Shown: positions 2 through 20,133 of the stretch, in pieces
How the letters are laid out: every line of letters begins with the position of its first letter
Position numbering within the stretch: the stretch's first letter is position 1
Virus record (IMG/VR): IMGVR_UViG_3300017989_002703
Coordinates: 1 to 22,637 of that record
Reading direction: 5' to 3' (one strand)
From: a virus
Length of the DNA stretch: 22,637 nucleotides
Made by a program: the position numbers and the translations under genes
Notes under the pieces: generated by a model
Seen by the model: the letters and a program-made list of their open reading frames with translations, nothing else
Database searches by the model: none
Told to the model about the DNA's origin: nothing

Positions 2-1816
2 GACAAAGTTGCGGCCAAAATCGTTAAGATGTGGCTGGACAGCATGTCATACGATATGGACATTGATATCAAGCGGATTCAGTGGGAGCTTCAAAAGAAG
101 ATTTTTGGAGAATGTTTTGTTATCCCTAAATGGGATTATCTCATGGGCGACATTCATCCGATGGCCAAAAATTTAGTGGATGACGACCTTCCTCTTGTTG
201 ATGAAGATGATCGGCCGATCCGAGACAAAGACGGAAATCCGTTGAAGGTTGATAAACACCAACGAATAGGGGATATCGATCTAGTGAATCCTCTTCCTTT
301 CGATGTGATGATCGATCCCAAGCATTACTACAAAGATTCAAATTGGTTCTATTGGGTAGACAGGAAAGAGACTTGCGAGGTAGAAAGCGAGTACGAGGTG
401 AAGTTTTCAAAGGATAAGAAAAATCCGAATCTCTCAAAGTATGATCCAAATAGCGGGTTTGACAAGGGTGCATCAGAATTCACCAAGGTTTACAATTTCT
501 ACCACAGATCTCATCCAATGCTCCCAAATGGCTACCATTTCGTGGCTACCAATGAACACGTTTTGGAAAAGAAGACGATGGAGGGAAGCACTACTCTCGT
601 CAATAACCGAGAACTTCCTTTGGTTCGATATATGGATTTGGATATCGGTTTCGGTGTCAGAGGAAATCCTATTCTTTTCAGGAATACCAGGAACGTTGTC
701 AGCGGATATAACCGCTTGACTAATCAGATCTACAAGAATCTTGAGGCTGAGTCTCCGAAGGTGATGGTTCACGAGACGGCAGGTGTCGATGCTCAGAGAA
801 TGCCCAACGGTGTCATTGTCATGGAGTGGAGAGGAAATATTAAACCTACTATCGAGACTCCGACTACCAACACCACTTCCATCTTCAAGTTTAGAGAGGA
901 TCTCAAGAAAAATATCATAGAACTTGGTGGTCAGACCCCAATGGTCAGGGGAGACACTCCCAACGCTCAACTCGACTCTTTCATTGCTTTGCAACATTTC
1001 GAAGACCAAAGAATTCAATTAGCTGCACCAGATATTAAAAACCATATCAAGTGCATGGAACATTTATACCGTTTCATGATCGTGATTGCTAGAGATCATT
1101 ATGATACCGACGATCAAAGGCTTATAAAGATAATCGGTCGAGACAATAAATTCAACCTTCAATATTTCGATCCCGACAATCTCGATAAGGTTTACGACGT
1201 TAAGATCACAACTACTGGAAACCTGGCAAATTCAAAGGCGGCCAGAACCCAGTTGATCATGACGATCAAAAGAGAATTTCCAGACATCATATCCAATGAA
1301 GTTTTTATCGATATGCTGGGCTTAAGCTCAAGCGATAAATTCCAAAATACCATTACAGCAGCAGTGAATGCGGCCGAATCTGAAAACGAAGATATGCTGA
1401 ATGGAGTGCCTGTCCCTCCTCCCGAAAGGTATGAGGATCTCATCACTCACTGGGATACGCATAGGATACCTCTGCAAAGCCGTGAGTACAAACTTGCTCC
1501 GCCCGACATTAAGGAACTGTTTGAAAGACACGTAACCGCCACAGAAAAGCTCATGTATGACCAAGCAGCCGAAAGTGAAGTTTTTGCCTCCAGACTCGCT
1601 GGGCTGCGGCAGTTCCCAATGTTTTTCTCTCCATTACCTAATAATGATAATCCCCAGGAAGAGGAACAGGCGGTTGAAGAAGCGAGACCCGTACCAGAAT
1701 CGACCAGCGAACAAATTATCGAAGTTGACCGCGAAGGCGAAGAGGGACAACCTCAACCAGAACAATTACCAATTCAGGACAGAGAAGAAGCAGAAACTCT
1801 TCCTGAGCCAACTTAG
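2..1816 (+). CDS. Portal protein (5' partial)
   Basis: Probable portal protein, the ring at one capsid vertex through which DNA is packaged and leaves. The reading frame is open to the left edge, so the N-terminus is missing; about 604 residues are visible, and P22-like portals run to roughly 700. The call rests on a PLPFDVMIDP segment, then a D..WFYWVDRKE stretch, a central segment around RNVVSGYNRLTNQIYKNLEA followed by GQTPMVRGDTPNAQLDS, and a helical region rich in conserved-looking charged residues. The last ~60 residues are Glu/Pro/Gln-rich and look disordered. It sits directly before scaffold and capsid genes, the classic order. The first ATG in the window (29) is internal and not the real start. 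P22-like versus another portal subfamily cannot be settled by eye. Confidence 0.85.
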   Translation, partial: DKVAAKIVKMWLDSMSYDMDIDIKRIQWELQKKIFGECFVIPKWDYLMGDIHPMAKNLVDDDLPLVDEDDRPIRDKDGNPLKVDKHQRIGDIDLVNPLPFDVMIDPKHYYKDSNWFYWVDRKETCEVESEYEVKFSKDKKNPNLSKYDPNSGFDKGASEFTKVYNFYHRSHPMLPNGYHFVATNEHVLEKKTMEGSTTLVNNRELPLVRYMDLDIGFGVRGNPILFRNTRNVVSGYNRLTNQIYKNLEAESPKVMVHETAGVDAQRMPNGVIVMEWRGNIKPTIETPTTNTTSIFKFREDLKKNIIELGGQTPMVRGDTPNAQLDSFIALQHFEDQRIQLAAPDIKNHIKCMEHLYRFMIVIARDHYDTDDQRLIKIIGRDNKFNLQYFDPDNLDKVYDVKITTTGNLANSKAARTQLIMTIKREFPDIISNEVFIDMLGLSSSDKFQNTITAAVNAAESENEDMLNGVPVPPPERYEDLITHWDTHRIPLQSREYKLAPPDIKELFERHVTATEKLMYDQAAESEVFASRLAGLRQFPMFFSPLPNNDNPQEEEQAVEEARPVPESTSEQIIEVDREGEEGQPQPEQLPIQDREEAETLPEPT

Positions 1817-1836
1817 ACCTAAGAAGGAGATTTGGC

Positions 1837-2961
1837 ATGACGGCGCAAATGGAAGAAGTAACAAGAGAAGAAAGTAAAGCTAGCTTGATTGATCAACTCC
1901 ATGAGAAAAGAGAGCAGCAAGATCAAGAGAGGGAAAAAAATGCCTTTCAAGAGCAAAAAGCAGATGAGATACATGTTCGCGAATCTTCCGAAGATAGCCA
2001 ACGCATGGGTGGGGGAAGCGAAGAAGAAGAAGAAACCCATGATAGCGAACGAGAAGAAAAAGGGAAAAGTTTCCTCTACTCGTTAGGAGAAGAAGAGGGC
2101 GAGATTGATGAGAATGCCATTTTTGAGCTGAAAGCCGATGGCAAGACGATGAAGATGACGTTAAAAGAAATGCGAGATGCGGCCGCTGGCGGCGTTGCTG
2201 TTAGAAATAGAATGCGTCAATTATCTGATGAAAGAAAAAAATTATATACACCTTATAAAGATTTTTATAACATTGCGAGTAAAGATCCACTAGGTGCTTT
2301 AAAGAAAGTTTTTTCTGCTATAAAGCAGGTAGATCCAAAAGCTGACATGAATAGTTTTCTAGTCGGCTTGGGTAAGCAAGCACAGAGCCTAGCTAAAATG
2401 AGTCCCTCTGAGCGTAAAGCTTACCAATTAGAAAAAGAACTGGATGAAACGCGGGAAACTCTTACAGAAAGTGAGAGGATAGCAAAGATCCAGGATTTGA
2501 AGCAAGAGCTTATCGGCGAGATGGGCATGTCTGAGGAGCAAGTATTTGACTTCGGGCAAAGAATTCTTTCCGACCCCACTCTTGCGGAGACAGTAAAGAA
2601 TGAGGAAGACCTCTTTGATCGGATTGGCGACCTACATGATGAGATCGAAAGGCAACAAGCTGTGATTGCAGCCTTGCAGAAACACGATCCCAAATTAAAA
2701 GGTAACGATCCCCTAGTCTTTGAGTTGTCGGCTCTTCTTGAAAAAAACCCTGATTTTGATGAAAGCGATCTCGAAGAGATAGCTGAGGGAATTTTAAAAG
2801 GGGTGAAGAAGTCTAACGTTTCGAGAGTGCTCTCGAAGAGGCAGAGGAGTAATGCTGTCAGGGGCTATAAAGCCAAACAGCAACCTAACTACTCCAGGAT
2901 GGCTCCGAAAGATGCTCTTAAGCAGCAGATTTTGCAAAAGAGGAATAGTCAACAACACTAA
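1837..2961 (+). CDS. Capsid scaffolding protein
   Basis: Probable scaffolding protein that guides coat assembly and is then lost from the capsid. It is 374 residues, starts at an ATG seven bases after AAGGAG (1824-1829), and lies between portal and capsid genes. Residues 1-85 are low-complexity Glu/Lys/Gln-rich. Residues ~97-165 hold a short conserved-looking region (ELKADGKTMKMTLKEM) of the type seen in phage scaffolds. The middle is strongly helical and charged, with a likely coiled coil at ~195-215 and ~265-285. The C-terminus is basic (RVLSKRQRSNAVRGYKAK), as expected for a coat-binding end. Oddity: residues 35-83 are also read in another frame as a separate small gene (1940-2086), which probably explains the poly-Glu run. 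Function is inferred from position and composition. Confidence 0.8.
   Translation: MTAQMEEVTREESKASLIDQLHEKREQQDQEREKNAFQEQKADEIHVRESSEDSQRMGGGSEEEEETHDSEREEKGKSFLYSLGEEEGEIDENAIFELKADGKTMKMTLKEMRDAAAGGVAVRNRMRQLSDERKKLYTPYKDFYNIASKDPLGALKKVFSAIKQVDPKADMNSFLVGLGKQAQSLAKMSPSERKAYQLEKELDETRETLTESERIAKIQDLKQELIGEMGMSEEQVFDFGQRILSDPTLAETVKNEEDLFDRIGDLHDEIERQQAVIAALQKHDPKLKGNDPLVFELSALLEKNPDFDESDLEEIAEGILKGVKKSNVSRVLSKRQRSNAVRGYKAKQQPNYSRMAPKDALKQQILQKRNSQQH
1940..2086 (+). CDS. Nested small basic phage protein (MPFKSK family)
   Basis: A 48-residue protein lying wholly inside the scaffold gene in the +1 frame. It begins MPFKSKKQMRYMFAN, continues LPKIANAWVGE and ends in a lysine-rich tail. From memory, short phage proteins of the form MPFKSKxQxRYMxAxxPxIAxxWxxE recur next to head genes in many phages; their role is unknown. 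AGAGAGGG (1926-1933) lies six bases before the ATG, a strong SD that the scaffold frame does not need. The longer frame from 1889 adds 17 residues with no SD of its own, so 1940 is preferred. The KKKKKP run in this frame reads as EEEEETH in the scaffold frame. I infer a genuine overlapping gene; it could still be a chance frame. Confidence 0.65.
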   Translation: MPFKSKKQMRYMFANLPKIANAWVGEAKKKKKPMIANEKKKGKVSSTR

Positions 2962-2976
2962 GATAAGAGGTGTGAA

Positions 2977-4221
2977 ATGAGTACAGTAGTACAACAACTT
3001 TCCCTTTCTGATCTGTCGGAACTTTATCAAATAGCCTATGGCGGCTTTGAAGTCGATGCCGCTGGCTGGGATAACCGACAGTTGATCGGGACAATCCGTA
3101 AAAATGAAAAATTCAATGGTAACAAGCTAGTCATTGGCCAGCTACTCGATTACGGGGGCGGACAATCATCTGGTGGATTGCCATCAAGCTCAACTGCCTA
3201 CATGATCAATCCGCAACTCTTTGCGAAGTCCGTATACAGCACAACTGTATTGGATAACCAAAGCATGAAGGCGGCTAGACGCGCGGGAACAAATCTCGGT
3301 GCTTTCGAAGATGCAACAGAACTTTCAATGCAAATCCTGAAGCAAAGCTTCCAGGAAAACATCGCCCGTCAATTTTTCGGGGATGGAACTGGAGAGCTTG
3401 GGGAAATTGCATCGGTGGTTACCAACGCCCCTGGCGATTATTCGGTAACGATCACAGCCGCATCCTTCATCGAAGCTCATTGGATCAGAAACGATCTATT
3501 GAACGTCGCATCCAGTACCGACCTGTTCTTGGTATCTGATATCAACCTATCAACTAGGGTGATCAGACTTCTTAGACAAAATGGATCTCATGTTCCATTG
3601 GCTGGTGAAAAAATTTACAAACAGAAGTCAAAAGACAATGAGATGTTCGGTCTCAAGGGTGTTTGTGATACTACATCAGGTCAGCTCTATGGAGTCGATG
3701 TCGGATACCGTTGGCAGGCAACAAACATTGATGCAGCAGGTTCTGGGCCATCAATTAAGTTGTTCCGTCAACTCGATCAGGAAATGAGATTTAACTCTCG
3801 CGGTGTCCTTCCAACTGACTACATCTTCTCTCACACTCAGCTAAGACTGTTTGAGGATTCAGAAGATGCTAAGTCAATCATCTGGATTGAGCCAACAGTA
3901 GCACCTGAGAGAGAAGCTGGATCGCAAGTGGCGGCTGTTAAACTCAACGGTCGAACAGTCCGTATCCAATGGTCTCCATACTGCCCAGAGGATAGAATCT
4001 ACGCTATTAACAGAAACAAAGTAAGCTTGGAGCTTAGACCTGATTCCATCGATCGCGGTGAAGACTGCGGTGGATTCATCGAGAACGGGGACTCAATTTT
4101 CTTCCCTCTCCATGTATCAGGAACTCCTATCGACAGCTTTGCAATGTTCTACTCGACTTATGGAAACTTCTTCATCAATCCTACCTTCACAGGTTGCATT
4201 GATGGGCTAGCAACATCATAA
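2977..4221 (+). CDS. Major capsid protein
   Basis: Probable major capsid protein, 414 residues, expected to have the HK97 fold that forms the icosahedral shell. It directly follows the scaffold gene, with GAGGTG upstream of the ATG. The N-terminal part (LSDLSELYQIAYGGFEVDAAG) is helical. Next come a Gly/Ser-rich loop at ~65-77 (GGGQSSGGLPSSS), candidate for the E-loop, and a long helical segment with NQSMKAARRAG and QSFQENIARQFFGDGTGELG, resembling the spine helix. The C-terminal half is beta-rich. No protease or cleavage site is evident. Position, length and codon use like neighbouring structural genes support the call; no specific capsid subfamily was recognised with certainty. Confidence 0.85.
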   Translation: MSTVVQQLSLSDLSELYQIAYGGFEVDAAGWDNRQLIGTIRKNEKFNGNKLVIGQLLDYGGGQSSGGLPSSSTAYMINPQLFAKSVYSTTVLDNQSMKAARRAGTNLGAFEDATELSMQILKQSFQENIARQFFGDGTGELGEIASVVTNAPGDYSVTITAASFIEAHWIRNDLLNVASSTDLFLVSDINLSTRVIRLLRQNGSHVPLAGEKIYKQKSKDNEMFGLKGVCDTTSGQLYGVDVGYRWQATNIDAAGSGPSIKLFRQLDQEMRFNSRGVLPTDYIFSHTQLRLFEDSEDAKSIIWIEPTVAPEREAGSQVAAVKLNGRTVRIQWSPYCPEDRIYAINRNKVSLELRPDSIDRGEDCGGFIENGDSIFFPLHVSGTPIDSFAMFYSTYGNFFINPTFTGCIDGLATS

Positions 4222-4231
4222 GGAGGGTGTA

Positions 4232-4600
4232 ATGGCTGAACAAGGATACCCACTTTTTGGCGGACAGCCTAGCGGCTATCTGTACGTTTTCAAGATAGAC
4301 GGGTCGGAAGTTGGAACATCGGCAGGAAGTGCTGGCCTCGATGGTCGAGGTCAGGCGATTGCTGATATCAACGATGATGGATCAAACGAAGTCACCATTA
4401 CTTGGAAAAGGAAGTTTGAAGACACTCCTTACGTCTTCATTCAGCCTTTGACAGCGAATGGATCCGCCAATATCACTACCAACGATGGTTCGACATTGGT
4501 TTTTGACGGAGTGGAAAGAGACGATAACGCAGCAGGATTGGCAGACCAAGACTACTTTGTTTACGTCTATGCTCATGACACAACCCAATTTATCTTGTAA
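4232..4600 (+). CDS. Small beta-rich structural protein, candidate decoration protein
   Basis: A 122-residue acidic protein with a strong SD (AAGGAGG just after the capsid stop). The sequence alternates short hydrophobic strands with Gly/Asn/Asp turns, for example GYLYVFKIDGSEVG, TWKRKFEDTPYVFIQ and DQDYFVYVYAHDTTQFIL, and predicts an all-beta fold. No signal peptide or membrane segment is seen. The place right after the major capsid gene suggests a capsid decoration or head-stabilising protein. The central TPYVFIQPL...ANITTNDGS section also resembles the carbohydrate-binding-like sandwich in many phage appendage proteins, so a fibre-associated role is the alternative. Function is inferred from position and composition only. 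Confidence 0.6.
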   Translation: MAEQGYPLFGGQPSGYLYVFKIDGSEVGTSAGSAGLDGRGQAIADINDDGSNEVTITWKRKFEDTPYVFIQPLTANGSANITTNDGSTLVFDGVERDDNAAGLADQDYFVYVYAHDTTQFIL

Positions 4601-4617
4601 CAAGGAGGCGATCTCTT

Positions 4618-4935
4618 ATGAGTAACTCAGGACAGAATGTCAAAGATGAGGCGGTCAGAGAGGTCGCCTTTGGTGATCTCAACGCTACTTATACGGCGTT
4701 GGGGTCAGCATTGGCACACGATTGTTTCACCTTGTCGATTTTCAACGACACGGATGCAAATGTTTATGTGTCAACTGACGAGTCAACTGATATGAAAAAG
4801 ATTGCGGCTCAAACAGGCCGCGTCTTTGATTATAAAACCAACGATATGTACAGGAAGAAGGATACTCAGTTCTACGTCAAGTACGATACGGCTCCTTCCT
4901 CTGGAAGCTTTTGGATAGAGGTGGAATACGTATGA
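4618..4935 (+). CDS. Small phage structural protein, unknown role
   Basis: A 105-residue protein preceded by AAGGAGG (4602-4608). The text TALGSALAHDCFTLSIFNDTDANVYVSTDE resembles small phage proteins with an FxNxTDxDVxxSxDG-type pattern, usually beta-sandwich proteins coded between capsid and fibre genes; that is family recall, not a search. C-terminal strands (QFYVKYDTAPSSGSFWIEVEYV) also point to a beta fold. Its stop overlaps the next ATG (ATGA), so it is translationally coupled to the fibre gene. It may decorate the virion or attach the fibre. It has no signal peptide, membrane segment or catalytic motif. Confidence 0.6.
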   Translation: MSNSGQNVKDEAVREVAFGDLNATYTALGSALAHDCFTLSIFNDTDANVYVSTDESTDMKKIAAQTGRVFDYKTNDMYRKKDTQFYVKYDTAPSSGSFWIEVEYV

Positions 4936-5879
4936 GTCAGATTGCTAATTTAGCTCCCACAGGAACTGCCCCCGCTGGAGATGTTGTCGGGCCAGCTAGC
5001 AGCACTGACAATGCGATTGCCAGATTCGATGGGACGACGGGGAAACTTATTCAAAACAGCGGGGTATTAATCGACGATTCCGACAATGTGACTGGCGTAA
5101 CCTCCATGATCATTGACGGGGCGACAGGAAATGTCCTCATCGTTGACACAGACACTCTCGTTGTAGATGCGACCAATGATCGTGTAGGTATAGGCGAAGC
5201 TACACCTACAGCCGCTCTTCACCTGAAAGCGGGTACAGCTACGGCTGGCACTGGGCCTTTAAAATTCACATCAGGAACTAACTTGACAGCCCCAGAAGAA
5301 GGGGTGGTCGAGTTTGACGGGACAAACCTTTTTTACACTGACAGCACGCCTACAAGACAAACTTTGGCGGTTCTAGAGGGTGGCGCGACAAATAACGTAG
5401 GCAGTGCAGGCAGCAGCACAGATAATGCCATAGCTAGATGGGACGGCGCGACAGGACAATTAGTTCAAGACTCTGGTTGGATCATTGAAGATGCCCCAGC
5501 GGGATATACAGGATCGGAACTCATCCAGGTTAAAGATGTTGTTCAAACAACAGATGCAACGCCTACAGACCTTGTTCAAATCTCTATAGATGAAGATGAA
5601 ATGCTGGTGATGGAAACATACCTGAATGGCTTTCAAAGCGATTTTACAGACTCTATCTCTGCTTGTGTCAGGTGTAAATTTTTCAGACAATCGGGCGGAG
5701 ATGTGACAGCGGGAACCAATCCAGATATTTGGATTAGCGAATCGGATGCAGATACAGATGTAACCCTAGTGGCCGACACGGCAAATCAGGAAGCGACAAT
5801 TCAGGTAACAGGTGTAGCAGCTCAAACCTGGAATTGGGTTTCTTATACAAGATATTTTAAAACAATAACAAATAGTTGA
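4932..5879 (+). CDS. Tail fibre protein with two SSTDNAIAR repeats
   Basis: A 315-residue probable tail fibre. The start is the ATG overlapping the previous stop (ATGA, with GAGGTGG upstream); an earlier in-frame TTG at 4911 lacks an SD. Domains: repeat 1 at ~20-52 (SSTDNAIARFDGTTGKLIQNSG); a VVDATNDRVGIGEATPTAALHL segment at ~77-100, typical of trimeric fibre shafts; repeat 2 at ~157-190 (SSTDNAIARWDGATGQ); and a C-terminal beta domain from ~204 starting VQTTDATPT and ending LVADTANQEATIQVTG...WNWVSYTRYF. The same C-terminal domain is found in the last + strand gene (17710-18258). It probably forms an adhesin shaft plus tip domain that touches the host surface. No pyocin-knob or lyase motif is seen. 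Confidence 0.8.
   Translation: MSQIANLAPTGTAPAGDVVGPASSTDNAIARFDGTTGKLIQNSGVLIDDSDNVTGVTSMIIDGATGNVLIVDTDTLVVDATNDRVGIGEATPTAALHLKAGTATAGTGPLKFTSGTNLTAPEEGVVEFDGTNLFYTDSTPTRQTLAVLEGGATNNVGSAGSSTDNAIARWDGATGQLVQDSGWIIEDAPAGYTGSELIQVKDVVQTTDATPTDLVQISIDEDEMLVMETYLNGFQSDFTDSISACVRCKFFRQSGGDVTAGTNPDIWISESDADTDVTLVADTANQEATIQVTGVAAQTWNWVSYTRYFKTITNS
4989..5087 (+). repeat. Fibre repeat unit, copy 1
   Basis: About 33 codons encoding GPASSTDNAIARFDGTTG then KLIQNSGVLIDD. It recurs at 5400-5498 with conservative changes (Phe to Trp, Lys to Gln, Val to Trp). Repeats of this kind are common shaft modules in phage fibres. Confidence 0.75.
5400..5498 (+). repeat. Fibre repeat unit, copy 2
   Basis: Second copy of the module, encoding GSAGSSTDNAIARWDGATG then QLVQDSGWIIED. 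The DNA has diverged from copy 1 at many third positions, so this is an old duplication, not a recent one. Confidence 0.75.
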
Positions 5880-5886
5880 GGTTAAA

Positions 5887-7362
5887 ATGACAGTACCATC
5901 AGTCGGATTTACCAATGGGGTATTAAGATACAAAATCTCCCAGGTTGGGGCGCACAGAATAGGTATGTCCCTCAGCAGCGGAACATTTTCAGTCCTTTCA
6001 AGCAATGGAAGGGATCTTTCAGCCAATGATGCTGGTTTTGTGACAGTCAAAAGCAAAACAGCAGGTCTTTTAAAAGAATATTTCATCACGGCAAACCAAA
6101 GTTTTGACGATGCGACGGCAGGAGGTGGGAGCGACATCATCGGGGCACTTTTCGGATTTCCAACAGGGGTCGCGATCACTTCCGATGTCACTTTCACGGG
6201 GTATGCCGTAGTCAACGACAATGAAGACGCGATTCAGATCATGATCGGGGTGGACGATACCTTGGAAACTTCTCCTTCCTCGGCCTTGATAGGAACTCCA
6301 AGCTCCCCAACCGATGCTAGCGATGCCAATAGTTTGTTTTCATTCGACGACATCACAACGACAGAGTGGGATAACAATCCTTGTGTTCCGATTTTCAAGA
6401 TGAGAATGCGAATGGACGGATCAGATGACTGGACTGTTCAAACTTTAAGCTCAAGCGATGGGATGATTGTTTCAGCTTCCTATACTCCTTCCTCAAAGAT
6501 TACAAAATTTTCTACTTCTGGAACATGGACAAAAGATCCTCGCACCAAGAGTGCTTTAGTCGTCGGATGGGGCGGCGGAGGCGGCGGAGGAAGTGGAAGA
6601 AGGGGAGCTAACGGAACTAACCGAGCAGGAGGAGGTGGAGGCGCATGTCAAGGGATGTTTATCTTTAATTGCGATGCTTCCTCTTTAGGAGATACAGAAA
6701 CAGTAACAGTGGGTGCAGGCGGTTCTGGTGGGGCATCTCAAACTTCAACAAGTACAAATGGAAATGATGGGACGGCTGGAGGAGCAACTTCGTTTGGCAA
6801 TATTTACACCTATAGTCCTAGTGTTAATTCTTTTGGAAGTGGAGGTCAAGCTGGATCAGGAACTGCTGCTGGTCAACCATATGTGTTTAGCAATTTTAAT
6901 GCTGTTCAAGTCTCTGGTGCAGGATCTGGGGGAACGATTGGAGCGGCTTCAGATGCGGAAGATGCCCCTGGATCAACTGGATTAGGAGGCTGTTTAGGTG
7001 GCGGCGGAGCTGGCGGAGGCGGCGGAATCAACACAGGAAATACTCGATTTAATGGCGGTGATGGGGGGGATATCACTACATGGGAAGCCTCTCCTTCAAC
7101 AATTTTGGCGGGTGGAATTGGCGGAGTTGTCAATATGACTCAGGCTGGTGGGAATGGAAATTCTAATTCCACTCTTTCATCTGGTGCAGTCTTTGCCACA
7201 GGGACAGGAGGCGGAGGCGGCGCAGCTCCAGCAGCAGGTGGAGACGGTGCTTCCCCTGGTGGAGGAGGTGGCGGCGGAGGAGCTGGTCAAGATCCAAGCT
7301 CTAACTCTGGAGCAGGCGGAGATGGTGCTGACGGCGCAGTATGGGTATTTGAATATTTTTAA
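5887..7362 (+). CDS. Glycine-rich tail fibre / adhesin
   Basis: A 491-residue protein started after GAGG (5880-5883). The first ~200 residues are beta-rich with low charge and hold a GVDDTLETSPSSALIGTPSS linker. Near residue 207 is FSTSGTWTKDP, the lead-in typical of phage glycine-rich domains, followed by ALVVGWGGGGGGGSG. From ~228 to ~485 come repeated Gly blocks (AGGGGGA, GGGGAGGGGG, GGGGGGGGAGQ) separated by Asn/Ser-rich turns. Such blocks form polyglycine-II helix bundles in known phage adhesins. The protein ends DGAVWVFEYF, like other members of this type. It is probably the receptor-binding tip, and the variable turns would set host range. Confidence 0.8.
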   Translation: MTVPSVGFTNGVLRYKISQVGAHRIGMSLSSGTFSVLSSNGRDLSANDAGFVTVKSKTAGLLKEYFITANQSFDDATAGGGSDIIGALFGFPTGVAITSDVTFTGYAVVNDNEDAIQIMIGVDDTLETSPSSALIGTPSSPTDASDANSLFSFDDITTTEWDNNPCVPIFKMRMRMDGSDDWTVQTLSSSDGMIVSASYTPSSKITKFSTSGTWTKDPRTKSALVVGWGGGGGGGSGRRGANGTNRAGGGGGACQGMFIFNCDASSLGDTETVTVGAGGSGGASQTSTSTNGNDGTAGGATSFGNIYTYSPSVNSFGSGGQAGSGTAAGQPYVFSNFNAVQVSGAGSGGTIGAASDAEDAPGSTGLGGCLGGGGAGGGGGINTGNTRFNGGDGGDITTWEASPSTILAGGIGGVVNMTQAGGNGNSNSTLSSGAVFATGTGGGGGAAPAAGGDGASPGGGGGGGGAGQDPSSNSGAGGDGADGAVWVFEYF

Positions 7363-7372
7363 GGAGAGTTTC

Positions 7373-7624
7373 ATGAGATACGCATTAATAGATAAAGAAA
7401 GCCACAAGATTAAAAACGTTGTTTCTTGGGATGGCCGAGAGGATATGTGGAAGCCTCCAGAAGATTGTTATGCTGTTCCTCTTCCTAGAGATCAAAAGTT
7501 TGGAATAGGTGATTCCTATGATCCAGATAAAAAAGAATGGTCTATGGCAGAAGAAAGAAAGGGAAAATTTGAGGATGTTAAGCCTGAAAATTCAGAAGAA
7601 GTTACTGAGGAGAGTCCCAAATGA
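7373..7624 (+). CDS. Small fibre-associated protein
   Basis: An 83-residue protein started at the ATG seven bases after AAGGAG; a longer in-frame extension back to 7148 would read through the glycine-rich fibre gene and is rejected. The pattern YALIDKESHKIKNVVSWDG, then W.PPEDCYAVPL and IGDSYDPDKKEWS, resembles short phage proteins that often follow fibre genes, where a YALID...NVIxWDG...IGWxYD pattern recurs. Their function is uncertain; a fibre chaperone or small tip component is plausible. The last 25 residues are Glu-rich. Its stop overlaps the next start (ATGA), which couples it to the lipoprotein gene. Confidence 0.65.
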   Translation: MRYALIDKESHKIKNVVSWDGREDMWKPPEDCYAVPLPRDQKFGIGDSYDPDKKEWSMAEERKGKFEDVKPENSEEVTEESPK

Positions 7625-7794
7625 TCAAAATCCTTCCATTTTTCCTAAGTTTATTTCTTCTTTCAGGATGTCATTACATCAATGAAAAAGTAGGTCTTCC
7701 AGACGACAATTCCATTGAGGAAGCAGCGGAAGACATCGTCAATGACCGCATTGGTATTGACTTTGATTTTACACCAAATACCCCAGAGGAGTAG
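7621..7794 (+). CDS. Small lipoprotein with EEAAED tail
   Basis: A 57-residue gene whose ATG overlaps the preceding stop. The N-terminus is a lipoprotein signal: MIK, a hydrophobic run ILPFFLSLFLLSG, then Cys17 within the lipobox LLSGC. After cleavage about 41 residues remain, highly acidic, ending NSIEEAAEDIVNDRIGIDFD then a short TPNTPEE end. The EEAAED...GI.xD motif recurs in the membrane protein two genes on (7997-8182). An acylated, probably outer-membrane or periplasm-facing peptide made late fits superinfection exclusion or lysis (outer spanin-like). The missing long partner and missing Pro-rich segment argue against a classical Rz1. Function is unproven. Confidence 0.75.
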   Translation: MIKILPFFLSLFLLSGCHYINEKVGLPDDNSIEEAAEDIVNDRIGIDFDFTPNTPEE

Positions 7795-7796
7795 TC

Positions 7797-8000
7797 ATGG
7801 AGTGGAAAGAATATACTCAGCAAGGTTGGATGAAAGAGAAAAAACCTCTGACAACCGACAATGAAAAAGCGTATGGGAAAAATTATAATCCCGCGCCGAA
7901 TGCAAAAAAGAATAATACAACTCCAAAAGAAAACAAAAATCACGGCTCAGCTCAACAAGCGGCCATGAAACCAAAAGATGTGGCGTGTAAATACAAATGA
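7797..8000 (+). CDS. Small hydrophilic protein, unknown
   Basis: A 67-residue basic protein with AGAGGAG five bases before the ATG; it begins two bases after the lipoprotein stop. It is very rich in Lys, Asn, Gln and Pro (MEWKEYTQQGWMKEKKPL, then NAKKNNTTPKENKN) and is probably disordered. It has no membrane segment, cysteine pair or recognisable motif. Its stop overlaps the next ATG (ATGA), so it is coupled between the lipoprotein and the membrane protein that share a C-terminal motif. No function can be assigned. The good SD and tight coupling argue that it is real. Confidence 0.6.
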   Translation: MEWKEYTQQGWMKEKKPLTTDNEKAYGKNYNPAPNAKKNNTTPKENKNHGSAQQAAMKPKDVACKYK

Positions 8001-8182
8001 TACCTGAAGAATTGAAAAAACCTTTCTGGACATGTGTGGCCATATTTGCGGCCGTCATGATTGCTTTTTTTTCCATATATATTCTTGGAATGGGAAATGA
8101 TAACCCTGTTGAGGAAGCGGCAGAGGATTTCATAGAGCATGTCAGCGGTATTAAAGTAGATATCTCACAAGGAGAAGAATAA
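7997..8182 (+). CDS. Small single-pass membrane protein with EEAAED tail
   Basis: A 61-residue protein that starts at an ATG overlapping the previous stop. Residues ~10-31 are one transmembrane helix (FWTCVAIFAAVMIAFFSIYI). The N-terminus carries Lys7/Lys8 and the C-terminus is acidic, so the tail should face the periplasm. The tail NPVEEAAEDFIEHVSGIKVD matches the end of the lipoprotein at 7621-7794 almost residue for residue over the EEAAED block and in the spacing to GI.xD. The pair therefore displays the same short peptide from two membrane anchors. Only ~27 residues lie outside the helix, too short for a normal inner spanin. A holin is possible but the acidic tail is unusual for one. Confidence 0.7.
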   Translation: MIPEELKKPFWTCVAIFAAVMIAFFSIYILGMGNDNPVEEAAEDFIEHVSGIKVDISQGEE

Positions 8183-8466
8183 TGGTAGAACCAGTTTCAA
8201 TGAGTGCTGGTGCGGCCGCTTTGATGGCGGCAGGACAAGGAGCACAAGGACTAGGCTCTTATTTTGCGGCTAAAGAATCAGGAAAGGCTGCTAAGAAGCA
8301 AGCTAAAGAAATGAAGAGAAAAACTCTAGCTGAACTTTTGAATGCTGCATTGAGTCGGGAGTTTGAAGCTGGGGAAGGAATGAGGAAAAGAGGGGGCGAG
8401 TTAGCAACAGCCAGAGCCTCTGCTTTACAAAATATCGCATCACAATATGTTCAAGCTTTGAGGTAG
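8182..8466 (+). CDS. Small Ala/Gly-rich protein, candidate internal virion protein
   Basis: A 94-residue protein with AAGGAG upstream; its ATG overlaps the previous stop by one base. The N-terminal 30 residues (SAGAAALMAAGQGAQGLGSY) are Ala/Gly-rich with small-residue spacing like a glycine zipper. A basic helical stretch follows (KAAKKQAKEMKRKTLAELL) and then an amphipathic C-terminal helix. This is the composition of small internal or ejected proteins of short-tailed phages, which insert into membranes during DNA entry, but no specific family was recognised. The neighbours are small membrane proteins upstream and an acidic protein downstream. Confidence 0.6.
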   Translation: MVEPVSMSAGAAALMAAGQGAQGLGSYFAAKESGKAAKKQAKEMKRKTLAELLNAALSREFEAGEGMRKRGGELATARASALQNIASQYVQALR

Positions 8467-8468
8467 AT

Positions 8469-8834
8469 ATGGCAAGAGAAACCTATAAGAAAGAAAAAAA
8501 ACTTCATGATCAGCTTTTAGAGATGCTTAAGAAGCATTTTGTAGAAGACGAGCAAGAAATCCTAGAAGATGATCTCGATGAAGAAATGAAGCCTATGCCA
8601 AAAAACATGGGGATGAAAAGAGGAAAGAAACTTGGCGCAATGACAGAAGAAGATCCTGATATGGATTATGAGGGTGCTGAAGACTTCTATGGCCAAGATG
8701 GAGATGACGACTATTTTGAAGACCTCACAGAAGAAGATGAGGATGAAGAAAATGAAATGAATCTCCCAAAAGAAAAAAGAAAGAATTTAGCCATTCTCGT
8801 CATCTCTAAGAAGGCTGGGAAAAAAAGAAAGTAG
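8469..8834 (+). CDS. Highly charged acidic protein, unknown
   Basis: A 121-residue protein with a GAGG five bases before the ATG and two bases after the previous stop. The N-terminus is basic and helical (ETYKKEKKLHDQLLEMLKKHF). The middle, ~35-97, is dominated by Asp/Glu (DDDYFEDLTEEDEDEENE), and the end is basic (KEKRKNLAILVISKKAGKKRK). Such opposed charge blocks suggest an assembly or DNA-mimic-like disordered protein, but no motif supports a defined role. It is followed by the connector candidate after a 21-base gap with its own SD. Confidence 0.55.
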   Translation: MARETYKKEKKLHDQLLEMLKKHFVEDEQEILEDDLDEEMKPMPKNMGMKRGKKLGAMTEEDPDMDYEGAEDFYGQDGDDDYFEDLTEEDEDEENEMNLPKEKRKNLAILVISKKAGKKRK

Positions 8835-8855
8835 TCCTCATGGAAAGGAGCAAAA

Positions 8856-9866
8856 ATGGGAACACGTCGTTTAGAAGAAATCCTTACCGATGCAAGGGCG
8901 CAAGCCTATAGTGAAGATTACAGCCTCACGGAAGGTTGGGATGATAACGTCGTTGCCCGTTTAGCTAATTTAGGACTCAACAAACTCTACCATGCAATTA
9001 CTCAGATTGACAATCCCGCAAACATTGAAGAGTATGTGACAGATGTCACCTCTGGACAACAAGCCTACGATATCCCTTTGGATATCTTTATGGCTATTAG
9101 AATCATGGATGTTCGGTATCTATGGGGAACTCAAAACTATGAGTTTGTCACTCTAAAACAGGGAACCATTCAAGATCGATTTGATTATCCAATCAATATC
9201 CCAGACACCTATTGCATCCGAGATGGTCAGATCCTGTTAAGCCCAACTCCCAACATCACAAAAACAAACTCTTTGATCATCAATTTTCAAAAGAGAATGC
9301 GGTCGTTGGATGTAAGAAGAGGACAGCTTGACTCTAAGACAGACTCTCCCGTTACAATCACAATTACATTTTCCACTACAAGCTCTAAGAATGCTAATAT
9401 GCGGGAAAATGCAGAATCTAACTTAGATAAGATCGATTATATTTGCTTGGTTGATCGAGATGGTACTCCGATCGTTTCTCAAATCCCTGTAAACAATTAC
9501 AACGCGACTACACAGGTTATTACAGCCGAAACAAGTTATACCTTCCCAACAGCAGAGCTTGCCGCCCTCGATGCAGCGATCGCGGCAGGTGATGCGATTT
9601 ATGTAGTCTCTGGTCAATACGCTTCCACTCACTCAGAACTTGATAGCCAATGCGAAGACTTCCTCATCGAGTTTGTGATCGCTAGACTCCTCAGATTGCA
9701 GTCAAATAGCAGTGAAATGCAGGAGGCTAGAATTCGAGAGCAGGAAGCAATGGAAGCTCTAATCAATGCATATAGAAGGCAAAGGCAGTCTGTATACCCT
9801 GTTAGATGGGTTCAGAATTTTAGAAGGAATTCTTATCCGTTTGGGCGCAGGGGTATCTACGGATGA
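8856..9866 (+). CDS. Head-tail connector / adaptor candidate
   Basis: A 336-residue protein with AAAGGAG before the ATG. The opening (RRLEEILTDARAQAYSED, then RLANLGLNKLYHAIT) is a helical segment of the kind seen in phage head-completion and tail-adaptor proteins that dock under the portal. Next come a beta-rich section (VTDVTSGQQAYDIPLDI; YCIRDGQILLSPTPN), typical of phage adaptors of short-tailed viruses, and a helical C-terminus (FLIEFVIARLLRLQ; EQEAMEALINAYRRQRQ). A segment at ~157-258 may be an inserted beta domain. The gene overlaps the following hub gene by four bases (ATGA). The pairing of a connector with a large hub protein resembles P22 gp4/gp10 or T7 gp11/gp12; which family it belongs to is not certain. 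Confidence 0.7.
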   Translation: MGTRRLEEILTDARAQAYSEDYSLTEGWDDNVVARLANLGLNKLYHAITQIDNPANIEEYVTDVTSGQQAYDIPLDIFMAIRIMDVRYLWGTQNYEFVTLKQGTIQDRFDYPINIPDTYCIRDGQILLSPTPNITKTNSLIINFQKRMRSLDVRRGQLDSKTDSPVTITITFSTTSSKNANMRENAESNLDKIDYICLVDRDGTPIVSQIPVNNYNATTQVITAETSYTFPTAELAALDAAIAAGDAIYVVSGQYASTHSELDSQCEDFLIEFVIARLLRLQSNSSEMQEARIREQEAMEALINAYRRQRQSVYPVRWVQNFRRNSYPFGRRGIYG

Positions 9867-12718
9867 CGCAGCATGTTCTAACCAAGACTTACAATGGATT
9901 AAGGGGATTTAGTACAGACTCCAAATTTGTAAGACCTGCAAACGTTTCCGATAAAGCCATTAATATGATTCGACTTCCTGACGGCACTTTTTCCCCTAGA
10001 AGAGGGTATCAGGTTCAAACGGATGAGATCGGCGGCCTGGGAATTGGAATCTATGAGAATTTAGATGAGGGTGTTGTTGAACCTGTCTGTATCAATAAAG
10101 ACGGAAATCTTTACATTCAGAAAACAGGATCGATGACAATCACCTTCAATGATCCAAACAACAATCCTGAAAGCTATGTTTCCTATCAAATTTTTGTTGA
10201 TCCTGAGACTGTCTCAGATAATCAAACATGCAATTTTGATCCCTACCTTGTTGTCGATGACAATGCCCTTGTCGATGACTGCATGAAATTCAAAATGGAT
10301 CAGCTTTTAGGATTTGACAATGTAGCCATAGGATCAGCAACAAATACCTATAGCGGAAGCTTGTCTGGCGCGCCTCTGAGTCCAGGAAGCATTTTGATGA
10401 CTGATGGGACTTTGACAATTCAAGACGACTCAGAGGGGGGATTCATTGGAGATATCGACTCTGGTGGAACCAATACAATCAACTATACGACTGGGGCTTA
10501 TACAGTAACATTTAGCGGTGTCACGGGATCAGTTGTGGCAAGCTATCGAACTACTTTGCAAGAACAATTCAATGCCTGTTTAGGTAAAGGTTTTGGAGTA
10601 GCTTCTCCTTTTACTATCAGCTCCTTGGTTGCATTGTTGACAGGGGTTAGCGGGGTGACAGTCTCCACGACTGGATCGACTAACCAGCCAGCGGCCTTTT
10701 TGGACATAACAGAGGAAACTACGATTGCCGACGGGCAAACAGTAACCCTTAATTGGTATTATTGGGAATCGGCAAATAGGACGGTAGCTTCCACTTTTTC
10801 TGGTTTGGCAGCTCAAATCAACAATGATGATTTCAGAATTGCGACATTTGCCCCCTATGAAGAAGCGATTTATATAGCGACTCGATATGACGAAGTTCAA
10901 AAGTATGACGGTCAAAATATCTACAGAGCAGGGATGCCGCAAGGAGCTACCCCATCAGTTGCGGCCGCAGGTTCTGGAACGGGTGTTGATATGGGCGATC
11001 ACACCTATTACATCACTTATGAGCAAATAGACAATAATGGTCGTTTAGTCGAAGGAAGACTATCTGTAGGAGACGATATCTCTTTAGGGGCGGCCGAAGA
11101 TGTCAACGTTACCTATACAAATCTTTTGCAAGGAAGCGGGTGGAATACAAATTGCGCGATCACAAACGGGGTGCAAGCGGGAGTCAATACTATAACGGTA
11201 GATGACGGATCTGGCGGCCCTCACAGTTTAAGAGACGGGGATGTCGCGTATTTCTTTGACGGAGTGACAAGCACTTATGTAACCCGAAATATTACAGCGG
11301 TGACTTCTACTTCCATCACCATCGATGGAGATCCTGTAAACGTAGGGGATAATGAGACAATCTCCAATAATCTAAAGATCAATATTTATAGGACGATCGA
11401 TGGAGGGACAACACCTTTCTTGGTGGTGGCACTTTCTAATAATTCTTATGCAACTTCTCCAGGAACGGAGATTTATTTAGATCAATCAAGCGATGCAACG
11501 ATTCAAGCAAACCGAGAGTATGTGATTCCAGCAAGACAGCCTGACCCCCCACCTAAAGTTGGTGTTGTGATTGCTTTTAGGAACCAGCTTATTTTTACTG
11601 ATGATCCAATCAACGACGACTATGTTTGGTTTTCTGAGGCAGCGCAGCCTGAATATGTTCCAGAGGCTTTCAATAATTTTATTATACCAAGTAACGATGA
11701 TGATGTGACGGGAGCAGGGGTTGCGGGATCTACCCTTATCATCTTCAAAAGCAAGTCGATTTATGCAGTGAGCGGCGATCTGATCACTAGCCAGTTTACG
11801 GTCACGAGCGTTGCCCCTGGGTCAAACATTGGGTGTGTGACTCACCACACGATTGTTTCTGTAGGCGGTTTGATTTACTTCCTCCATACCAACGGACTCT
11901 ATGCCATTGCCGAAACTCAACTTTACCCTACAGATTCATTCGGTAACCCGATTCCGTTGACAATCATGATTGACCAGGTATTTAGGACAGATGCCTTCCA
12001 GAAGAACCAGCGGTATGTTTTAAAGAGGGCAACAGCGACAAACTACACAAAAGACAACCAATACCTTTTATTTTTACCAGCAGAAGAGGAAGACGGCCCA
12101 AGGGCGGCCAATAATAATTCCAGAGTATTTTGCTATGACTATCAAGGCAAAAACTGGTTTGAGTGGACTAGGGTAAATGCGGCTGGTGGGTGGTATGTCC
12201 TAAGCGACAATCTCTATTGGCAGGAAAGAAGGCGGATGAATGCGACGATCACTGCAAAACAGTATAGGCAGCATAGACACTATCGTTTAATTGATTATGT
12301 GGATCATGTAACACCTGTTCGTGTGACATGGGAATCTTCTTGGGAGGATTTGGGTCAACCACGTGTGAGAAAGAAGTTTGTGAGAACATGTTTGTTGTTT
12401 GACGAAATATCAGCTTTGTTTCAACAAAATATTCCAACTTTATGCTTTTACAGTTATAAAGACTGGGTAGAAGGTAGAATAAGTACAAGCACTGATATTA
12501 TGCAAAAGATCAATAGTTCTCAGTGGAGCACAGACTTATGGAATTGGATTCAATGGTCTGGATATCAGGACTCTTTTATCACCATTCCTTTAAAAGGTGG
12601 CACTGTAACAAAGTCTATGAAAATAGGATTGCAGTTAAATCAAATCAACACAACTTTTAATTTGCAGGGATTCCAGCAGGAAGTAAGTCCTGACTTCAGG
12701 AGGACGATTGTCAGATGA
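9863..12718 (+). CDS. Large tail hub / nozzle protein (beta-propeller type)
   Basis: A 951-residue probable tail hub or nozzle protein, of the type of P22 gp10 or T7 gp12. The N-terminus LRGFSTDSKFVRPANVSDKA with PDGTFSPRRGYQ is characteristic. Residues ~169-233 form a PGSILMTDGTLTIQDD...INYTTGAYTVTF beta module found in other phage structural proteins. From ~325 come blade-like segments: FAPYEEAIYIATRYDEVQKY; FRNQLIFTDDPINDDYVWFS; GSTLIIFKSKSIYAVSGD; GGLIYFLHTNGLYAI. The C-terminus ends LQGFQQEVSPDFRRTIVR, also familiar in the family. T7 gp12 is about 790 residues, so this version is long, mostly from the inserted beta modules. It overlaps both neighbours with ATGA junctions. Confidence 0.8.
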   Translation: MTQHVLTKTYNGLRGFSTDSKFVRPANVSDKAINMIRLPDGTFSPRRGYQVQTDEIGGLGIGIYENLDEGVVEPVCINKDGNLYIQKTGSMTITFNDPNNNPESYVSYQIFVDPETVSDNQTCNFDPYLVVDDNALVDDCMKFKMDQLLGFDNVAIGSATNTYSGSLSGAPLSPGSILMTDGTLTIQDDSEGGFIGDIDSGGTNTINYTTGAYTVTFSGVTGSVVASYRTTLQEQFNACLGKGFGVASPFTISSLVALLTGVSGVTVSTTGSTNQPAAFLDITEETTIADGQTVTLNWYYWESANRTVASTFSGLAAQINNDDFRIATFAPYEEAIYIATRYDEVQKYDGQNIYRAGMPQGATPSVAAAGSGTGVDMGDHTYYITYEQIDNNGRLVEGRLSVGDDISLGAAEDVNVTYTNLLQGSGWNTNCAITNGVQAGVNTITVDDGSGGPHSLRDGDVAYFFDGVTSTYVTRNITAVTSTSITIDGDPVNVGDNETISNNLKINIYRTIDGGTTPFLVVALSNNSYATSPGTEIYLDQSSDATIQANREYVIPARQPDPPPKVGVVIAFRNQLIFTDDPINDDYVWFSEAAQPEYVPEAFNNFIIPSNDDDVTGAGVAGSTLIIFKSKSIYAVSGDLITSQFTVTSVAPGSNIGCVTHHTIVSVGGLIYFLHTNGLYAIAETQLYPTDSFGNPIPLTIMIDQVFRTDAFQKNQRYVLKRATATNYTKDNQYLLFLPAEEEDGPRAANNNSRVFCYDYQGKNWFEWTRVNAAGGWYVLSDNLYWQERRRMNATITAKQYRQHRHYRLIDYVDHVTPVRVTWESSWEDLGQPRVRKKFVRTCLLFDEISALFQQNIPTLCFYSYKDWVEGRISTSTDIMQKINSSQWSTDLWNWIQWSGYQDSFITIPLKGGTVTKSMKIGLQLNQINTTFNLQGFQQEVSPDFRRTIVR

Positions 12719-19079: not shown

Positions 19080-19601
19080 TTATTGTTCTAAATAATTTAA
19101 TCTCATATACCAAAGGGCCATGCTCACGGCATCAATGATATGTTCAAATTGTCCTTTAGCTTTCGGCATATCGTCATAAAGCCAGTTTTCATAATTACCG
19201 ACCATTTCTTCGGTAATCTTTCTCGTTTTTTCCTTCTTTTTGCTTTCATTCCATACTGTAGGATAAACAGGTATTACCCTGTCTCTTTCTACCATCATAA
19301 GGATTCCCCCAGCCACGGCAGCCACTGGAATCAAAGCCCCAGCGGAAAATGTTTTTGAATAGATCGCTGCTGGTATCTCAACGACGCAATGATCTGATTC
19401 TATAAAGCAATCTCTATTTAGAATTTCAGAGACTCGATCCTGCATATCTAAAATGGCATCGATCCCTTTTATTTTTGGGGGAGTCTTTGCCACTCCGCAA
19501 TTGCTTACCCAAATTTCATTCGTTTCGCCGTTATAATTAACGACTCCATAACCTGTAAACCTTAGCCCTGGATCAATTCCCGCTATCCTCACTACTTCCA
19601 T
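19080..19601 (-). CDS. RuvC-like Holliday-junction resolvase
   Basis: A 173-residue resolvase-type nuclease of the RNase H-like fold, expected to cut branched DNA before or during packaging. The start at MEVVRIAGIDPG has GAGG six bases upstream; the frame continues to 19697 but without an SD and wholly inside the next gene. Catalytic residues visible: Asp10 in AGIDPGLRFTGYGVV, Glu75 in CVVEIP, and His154/Asp157 in FEHIIDAVSMAL. The His...Asp ending is like Thermus RuvC, which uses Asp7, Glu70, His143 and Asp146. The middle KTFSAGALIPVAAVAGGIL matches the helix before the active site. It overlaps the ssDNA-binding-type gene by 29 bases, so the two are coupled. Confidence 0.85.
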   Translation of the reverse strand: MEVVRIAGIDPGLRFTGYGVVNYNGETNEIWVSNCGVAKTPPKIKGIDAILDMQDRVSEILNRDCFIESDHCVVEIPAAIYSKTFSAGALIPVAAVAGGILMMVERDRVIPVYPTVWNESKKKEKTRKITEEMVGNYENWLYDDMPKAKGQFEHIIDAVSMALWYMRLNYLEQ

Positions 19602-20133
19602 CTTCAACCTCAACGAGTTTTTGTGTTTCATCGTCAAGATAGAAAGTAACCTTTGTTGGTGAAAAACTAAAGGCGTTTTTTTTGTGGAATTTGTCAAAGT
19701 ATCGTCTCAAGTCAAACTTAACTTTACATTTAAACCCTTCGGGCAAGTCATGTTCTAAATCTAATAGAACAGCCTTTTTCTTCCCTTTTTCTACTAGGTA
19801 GGTTTCAGGTCTTTCACGTCCTTGATAGCTCATCAAAATTAGTCCGTCGTCGGTTTGCCTTCCTAAAGTAGATACATCATTTTCAACGGCAAACTTCTCT
19901 AGAGACTCAAGGTATTTCTTGTGTGTATCCTGCTTAGGATCGAGATAAACGCAAACCTTATATCTAGGAATGTGAGAGCCTGAAAAATAATATGGCTTAT
20001 AAAGTGCACAAAATTGTAGAGTGACAATAGGAGTTTCAAGGTTTTCTTTTATTACCGTGACGTACTCGGATTTAGGAGCTTTGGAGCTTTTAGGTTTTTT
20101 TAAAGAAATCGTTTTTCTAGTTGTTTTTTTCAT
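19573..20133 (-). CDS. Probable ssDNA-binding protein
   Basis: A 186-residue protein started at the ATG seven bases after AAGGAG. The N-terminus is strongly basic (KKTTRKTISLKKPKSSK). The core alternates strands, as in an OB fold (TPIVTLQFCALYKPYYFSG; YKVCVYLDPKQDTHKKYL; FKCKVKFDLRRYF; SFSPTKVTFYLDDET). The end is acidic (VEVEDGSSEDSGN), as in T7 gp2.5 and other phage ssDNA-binding proteins that use an acidic tail to recruit partners. It neighbours, and shares 29 bases with, the RuvC-like gene. No exact family was recognised; the alternative is another phage replication accessory protein. Confidence 0.65.
   Translation of the reverse strand: MKKTTRKTISLKKPKSSKAPKSEYVTVIKENLETPIVTLQFCALYKPYYFSGSHIPRYKVCVYLDPKQDTHKKYLESLEKFAVENDVSTLGRQTDDGLILMSYQGRERPETYLVEKGKKKAVLLDLEHDLPEGFKCKVKFDLRRYFDKFHKKNAFSFSPTKVTFYLDDETQKLVEVEDGSSEDSGN

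Follow-up and report, generated by a model that had tools for sequence, protein, structure and literature searches.

The window analysed here is a stretch of 22,637 nucleotides, positions 1 to 22,637 of the IMG/VR virus record IMGVR_UViG_3300017989_002703, and it contains a run of phage head genes on the plus strand. A P22-like portal protein gene, whose 5' end is cut by the window, occupies positions 29 to 1816; its match to PF16510 (E 1.7e-5) scores below the Pfam cut-off, and its relatives match the portal family phrog_156. The major capsid protein gene lies at positions 2977 to 4221 (phrog_14242, E 5e-7). Between the two is an ORF of 374 amino acids at positions 1837 to 2961, which is preceded by a strong Shine-Dalgarno sequence (AAGGAG, 1824 to 1829). 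We call this ORF the scaffold gene, a putative assignment based on its position between portal and capsid and on its helical prediction; searches of PHROGs and Pfam gave no match to a scaffold family or to a lysis family. Elsewhere, the window encodes a Gly_rich_2 domain (PF21722) protein that is probably tail-related (5887 to 7359, plus strand), an SU10 adaptor-like protein (8856 to 9863, plus strand; PF24175, E 1.7e-5, narrowly missing the Pfam cut-off) and a RuvC-like resolvase (19083 to 19697, minus strand; PF02075, E 5.9e-6).

Wholly within the scaffold gene, one base out of its frame (phase +1), lies a complete 48-codon ORF on the same strand at positions 1940 to 2086, just as the initial annotation had claimed. 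It starts with the ATG at 1940, its stop codon ends at 2086, and its product is MPFKSKKQMRYMFANLPKIANAWVGEAKKKKKPMIANEKKKGKVSSTR. The annotation had also described a strong Shine-Dalgarno sequence six bases before the ATG. The position is correct, since AGAGAGGG (1926 to 1933) ends there, but the strength is only moderate: GAGG is a 4-base match to AGGAGG and is weaker than the AGGAG of the scaffold gene itself. The corresponding signal is a 3-base match in one related contig (L004, see below) and a GAGG located further upstream in another (L006).

The two frames encode very different peptides in the overlap, with a net charge of -9 in the scaffold and +13 in the small protein. AlphaFold predicts a helix at scaffold residues 3-43 and gives its lowest confidence at residues 44-75, although the overall model is weak (pTM 0.31); this minimum falls inside the range (35-83) that had been singled out as the least structured part of the protein. 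For the 48-amino-acid protein, it predicts two helices, at residues 6-15 and 17-30, followed by a flexible basic tail (pLDDT 83.5).

The small protein matches phrog_1375, a family of small phage proteins of unassigned function, at E 7e-4 over residues 3-29, and a form extended to an upstream TTG matches at E 3e-5. An alignment of 25 family members gives the motif MPFKSxKQ...P.xA..W, which is present in the window protein; the protein also has the family's short length, basic character and two helices. Other searches with it found no match in Pfam, none in PDB by sequence or by fold, and none among plasmids, and a structure search of a viral library returned mainly unnamed small phage proteins. 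When IMG/VR was scanned with the nested proteins, at least 255 family members were confirmed among the 600 pattern matches listed, and the best 80 of these were read: approximately 25 are nested, many are standalone genes, and some form the N-terminus of long proteins. The family is widespread and consists mostly of basic two-helix proteins of 40-70 amino acids with the motif MPFKSxKQ...P.IA..W. The MPFKSEKQ motif also begins some proteins of 400-650 amino acids (L045 at 4144, L076 at 5001, L029 at 3000).

ORF length was discarded as evidence for the nested gene because synonymous codon shuffling of the scaffold gene gave a +1 ORF with an ATG start and 48 or more codons in 1342 of 2000 trials (67%). 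Long +1 ORFs being so common at this composition, the ORF might be a chance product, a Lys-rich frame over a Glu-rich scaffold segment whose likeness to the family is only apparent. In keeping with this, the contigs L003, L005 and L009, which are relatives of the window, keep the +1 frame open without any family sequence in it. The substitution patterns described below bear directly on this point.

These relatives belong to group A, which consists of the window (W) and seven contigs sharing its capsid gene at 71-84%; searches through scaffold and portal alignments added no further members. L004 and L006 carry the nested gene at the same place and in the same phase, with products 60% and 56% identical to that of the window. 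L002, L003, L005, L009 and L010 have no intact family copy at the locus or elsewhere in their contigs, so the gene is dispensable or replaceable in these five of the eight genomes, and no second copy was found elsewhere in the window or in any group-A contig. In all eight genomes, the scaffold gene begins at the same point immediately after the portal gene and retains its N-terminal segment, and the overlap is its most variable part in the group.

Among the three carriers, scaffold third positions differ much less over the first 27 host codons of the overlap than over the rest of the gene: 0.26 against 0.59 for W-L004 (Fisher p 9e-4), 0.26 against 0.66 for W-L006 (p 6e-5) and 0.19 against 0.49 for L004-L006 (p 2e-3). 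In the same stretch of these three sequences, host first positions, which are the wobble positions of the nested frame, change more than third positions. Pairs of non-carriers exhibit no slowing of third positions over the overlap, and a sliding window along the scaffold gene places the signal at the nested gene. The synonymous-site constraint over 1940 to 2086 that the initial annotation had suggested looking for is therefore present, only in carriers and only over the overlap, and the nested frame is under purifying selection. In group A, the constraint on the host frame is visible only as a frame that is kept open.

A tree built from capsid, portal and the C-terminal part of scaffold, with good support, places W with L002 and L003, and L004 and L006 with the other three contigs. 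The carriers do not form one clade (p 2.6e-7), and the tree requires two changes. This distribution would suit a late insertion or lateral transfer of the small gene into a hinge of the scaffold, the window copy having perhaps come from the L004/L006 lineage. Transfer between lineages is kept in consideration because the overlap of W and L004 is nearly as similar as that of L004 and L006. However, L002, a member of the window's own clade, retains a decayed in-frame copy (SPFKRVMMMNPLKIADR*) whose start has been lost and in which a stop has been gained; none of 2000 synonymous shuffles was as similar to the window protein. The nested gene was therefore lost within this clade while the scaffold gene stayed open, and L002 looks like a post-loss state. 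We therefore regard late insertion as possible but unlikely, and ancestral presence followed by two losses is the favoured history of the gene in group A. An intact scaffold with a broken nested frame had been named beforehand as a case that would speak against the gene. L002 is literally such a case; what it reveals is loss of the gene, not absence of coding.

Many of the nested copies in IMG/VR are located in a second host, a family of proteins of about 400 amino acids that we call group B, near the host N-terminus. The host gene is flanked by portal (phrog_6547) and capsid-position (phrog_13704) genes. A nested gene in the same +1 phase is present in 74 of the 79 group-B loci, although this is not an unbiased census, since the loci are the top matches to a single query, with near relatives among them. 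The 74 comprise 67 of the MPF[K/R/E] type, six of the MPFV and MPFQ types, and L170, in which the gene was first missed because the host start had been misassigned. The overprinting of a recognisable family in a head gene, expected at first to be unusual, is thus recurrent. Profile comparison of the window scaffold with the group-B host aligns only the overlap peptide, both profiles being shallow, and the idea that the two hosts are homologous was set aside, no relation being detectable. The group-B host has cultured relatives (elemo phages, Cellulophaga phi38:1 and Calle_1, Tenacibaculum Gundel_1, and ctfjg026), none of which contains a nested copy. The slot is also occupied by different small-protein types (MPFKHKRQMIAMLLSK... 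and MPFKSKAQRKACYTQNNPNWDCKKW...), which would again suit the late insertion considered above. Examples of these differing proteins are found in L143 at 4194, L148 at 2598 and L182 at 4149, and all are basic and in the same phase.

Selection was also assessed in group B. Over 22 disjoint pairs, host codon positions 1, 2 and 3 differ at 0.122, 0.081 and 0.327 outside the overlap and at 0.215, 0.084 and 0.080 inside it, so substitutions there follow the wobble of the nested frame instead (p 5e-42). Nested-wobble changes nevertheless stay below the rate seen at ordinary third positions (0.215 against 0.327, p 2e-8), which indicates that the host frame is also constrained. Mean charge is +9.6 for the nested proteins and -8.6 for the host segment. 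The p value for group B, the reversal of codon positions in the group-A carriers, the recurrence in unrelated hosts, and the family match with its motif conserved in L004 and L006 all argue against a chance ORF, which we consider very improbable. Judged by the sequence evidence, 1940 to 2086 is very probably a genuine protein-coding gene.

Giant ORFs of other phages, each represented by single sequences, likewise contain the small gene nested in this phase: L057 and L060 (2417 codons; 2486 to 9736 in L057), L079 (2799 codons, 1751 to 10147, with GNAT and DUF7178 domains), L107 from a Cytophagales bin (2691 codons, 2904 to 10976, related to L079) and L066 (1376 codons). In L113 (5694 to 6147), the gene shares sequence only with the 3' end of an upstream ORF, again in the same phase, and this locus and L279 are possible intermediates between separated and embedded forms. 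Fusion by frameshift was rejected as a general origin, the nested frame being open for a median of only 5 codons upstream of its ATG.

In every nested copy, a similar acidic peptide, NAIQERETxEVPVGExTGDSxxV, is encoded in the host frame as a by-product of the phase: Lys-rich AAG runs of the nested frame become Glu codons (GAA) in the host frame, in keeping with its acidic disordered segment. The poly-Glu over poly-Lys noted at first in the window is in part an automatic consequence of this phase. All unique nested copies have an open host phase (70 of 70), whereas in standalone copies it is always closed (55 of 55); openness in the former is partly a matter of definition, and the contrast with the latter shows that it is not automatic. 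At potential host-stop sites, defined as NNT codons before AA, AG or GA, nested copies have NNC in all 198 of 198 instances and standalone copies in 93 of 359.

These observations also bear on the idea that the small gene alone matters, with the overlying host ORF a free-riding linker and the scaffold truly starting further downstream. Such a linker would agree with the predicted disorder of host residues 44-75, with the variability of the overlap and with a substitution pattern dominated by the nested frame. It does not agree with the strong Shine-Dalgarno sequence of the start at 1837, the predicted helix upstream of the disordered segment, the N-terminal segment kept in all eight relatives, the invariably open host frame with its NNC codons, or the constraint on the nested wobble, and it is accordingly improbable.

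Since the hosts in which this family is nested have no detectable relation, the small gene appears to be the older, common element, and the proposal that it came first holds in general; larger genes would then have spread over a pre-existing small gene. The specific event proposed, an extension of the scaffold N-terminus over the small gene, is no more than a candidate, because all eight group-A scaffolds share their start, the five non-carriers included, and L002 looks post-loss.

The genomic context of the family gives some indication of its function. Standalone members share the motif, size and basic character of the window protein, which differs from them in lying wholly inside another gene. 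Their annotated neighbours include GroES (12 of the 88 neighbours scanned), portal (10) and terminase, and some copies directly follow portal, lie between terminase and portal or precede a scaffold-like gene, so that the likeness to small phage proteins coded in their own frame near head genes is borne out. A head-assembly or packaging accessory is, on this context, about an even prospect. A role in lysis or host takeover would be suggested by the Streptomyces phage copies, which are flanked by peptidase and holin away from head genes, and by other standalone copies next to endolysin or holin. However, such neighbours are outnumbered by portal, terminase and GroES, the nesting occurs in the portal-capsid interval in two phage groups, and the protein has neither the cysteine of a lipobox nor a long hydrophobic segment; we therefore consider this role rather improbable, if slightly less so than the linker.

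For the nested gene as a head-module protein, we propose that its translation would start internally on the head-operon mRNA, one base out of scaffold phase. The larger gene would have come to read through the small gene in several phage lineages, making the DNA dual-coding, and the one phase used would be that which yields a stop-free, acidic and disordered segment. The small protein, elsewhere standalone and often in head modules, would act in head assembly or packaging, where its positive charge might allow binding to DNA or to the acidic scaffold. More tentatively, and with the odds against it, the basic helix pair and the acidic host segment made from the same DNA might bind each other in head assembly, the overprinting being repeated, stable and confined to one phase.

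Among dsDNA phages, embedded +1 genes are best known from the Rz/Rz1 spanins, which occur in embedded, overlapped and separated forms (PMC6139136). The window pair resembles them in that one gene contains a second, small and complete, in its +1 frame, and the phrog_1375-like family also occurs embedded (groups A and B), overlapped (L113) and separated (standalone). As in the embedded Rz1 architecture, both frames are under selection, the host-frame constraint being derived from group B. In contrast, Rz and Rz1 are lysis proteins whose embedded partner is a cysteine lipoprotein that pairs with an inner-membrane spanin, whereas the window host is a head-module gene and the nested protein has no cysteine or membrane segment. 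In lambda C/Nu3, a head-module product is started inside another head gene. The window would resemble this case, except that Nu3 shares the frame of C and the nested gene is in a different frame from the scaffold. The part of the literature covered contained no paper on phrog_1375, no gene nested in a scaffold-position gene and no single small family embedded in several unrelated hosts.

The present case is a recurrent and statistically strong example of dual coding in dsDNA phages outside the lysis genes. This conserved gene would escape gene callers and annotation pipelines in which nested ORFs are suppressed. Its embedded, overlapped, separated and decayed forms make up a natural series that provides material on how overprinting starts and ends, and the family itself is an uncharacterised protein, often of the head module, that is common to very different phages.
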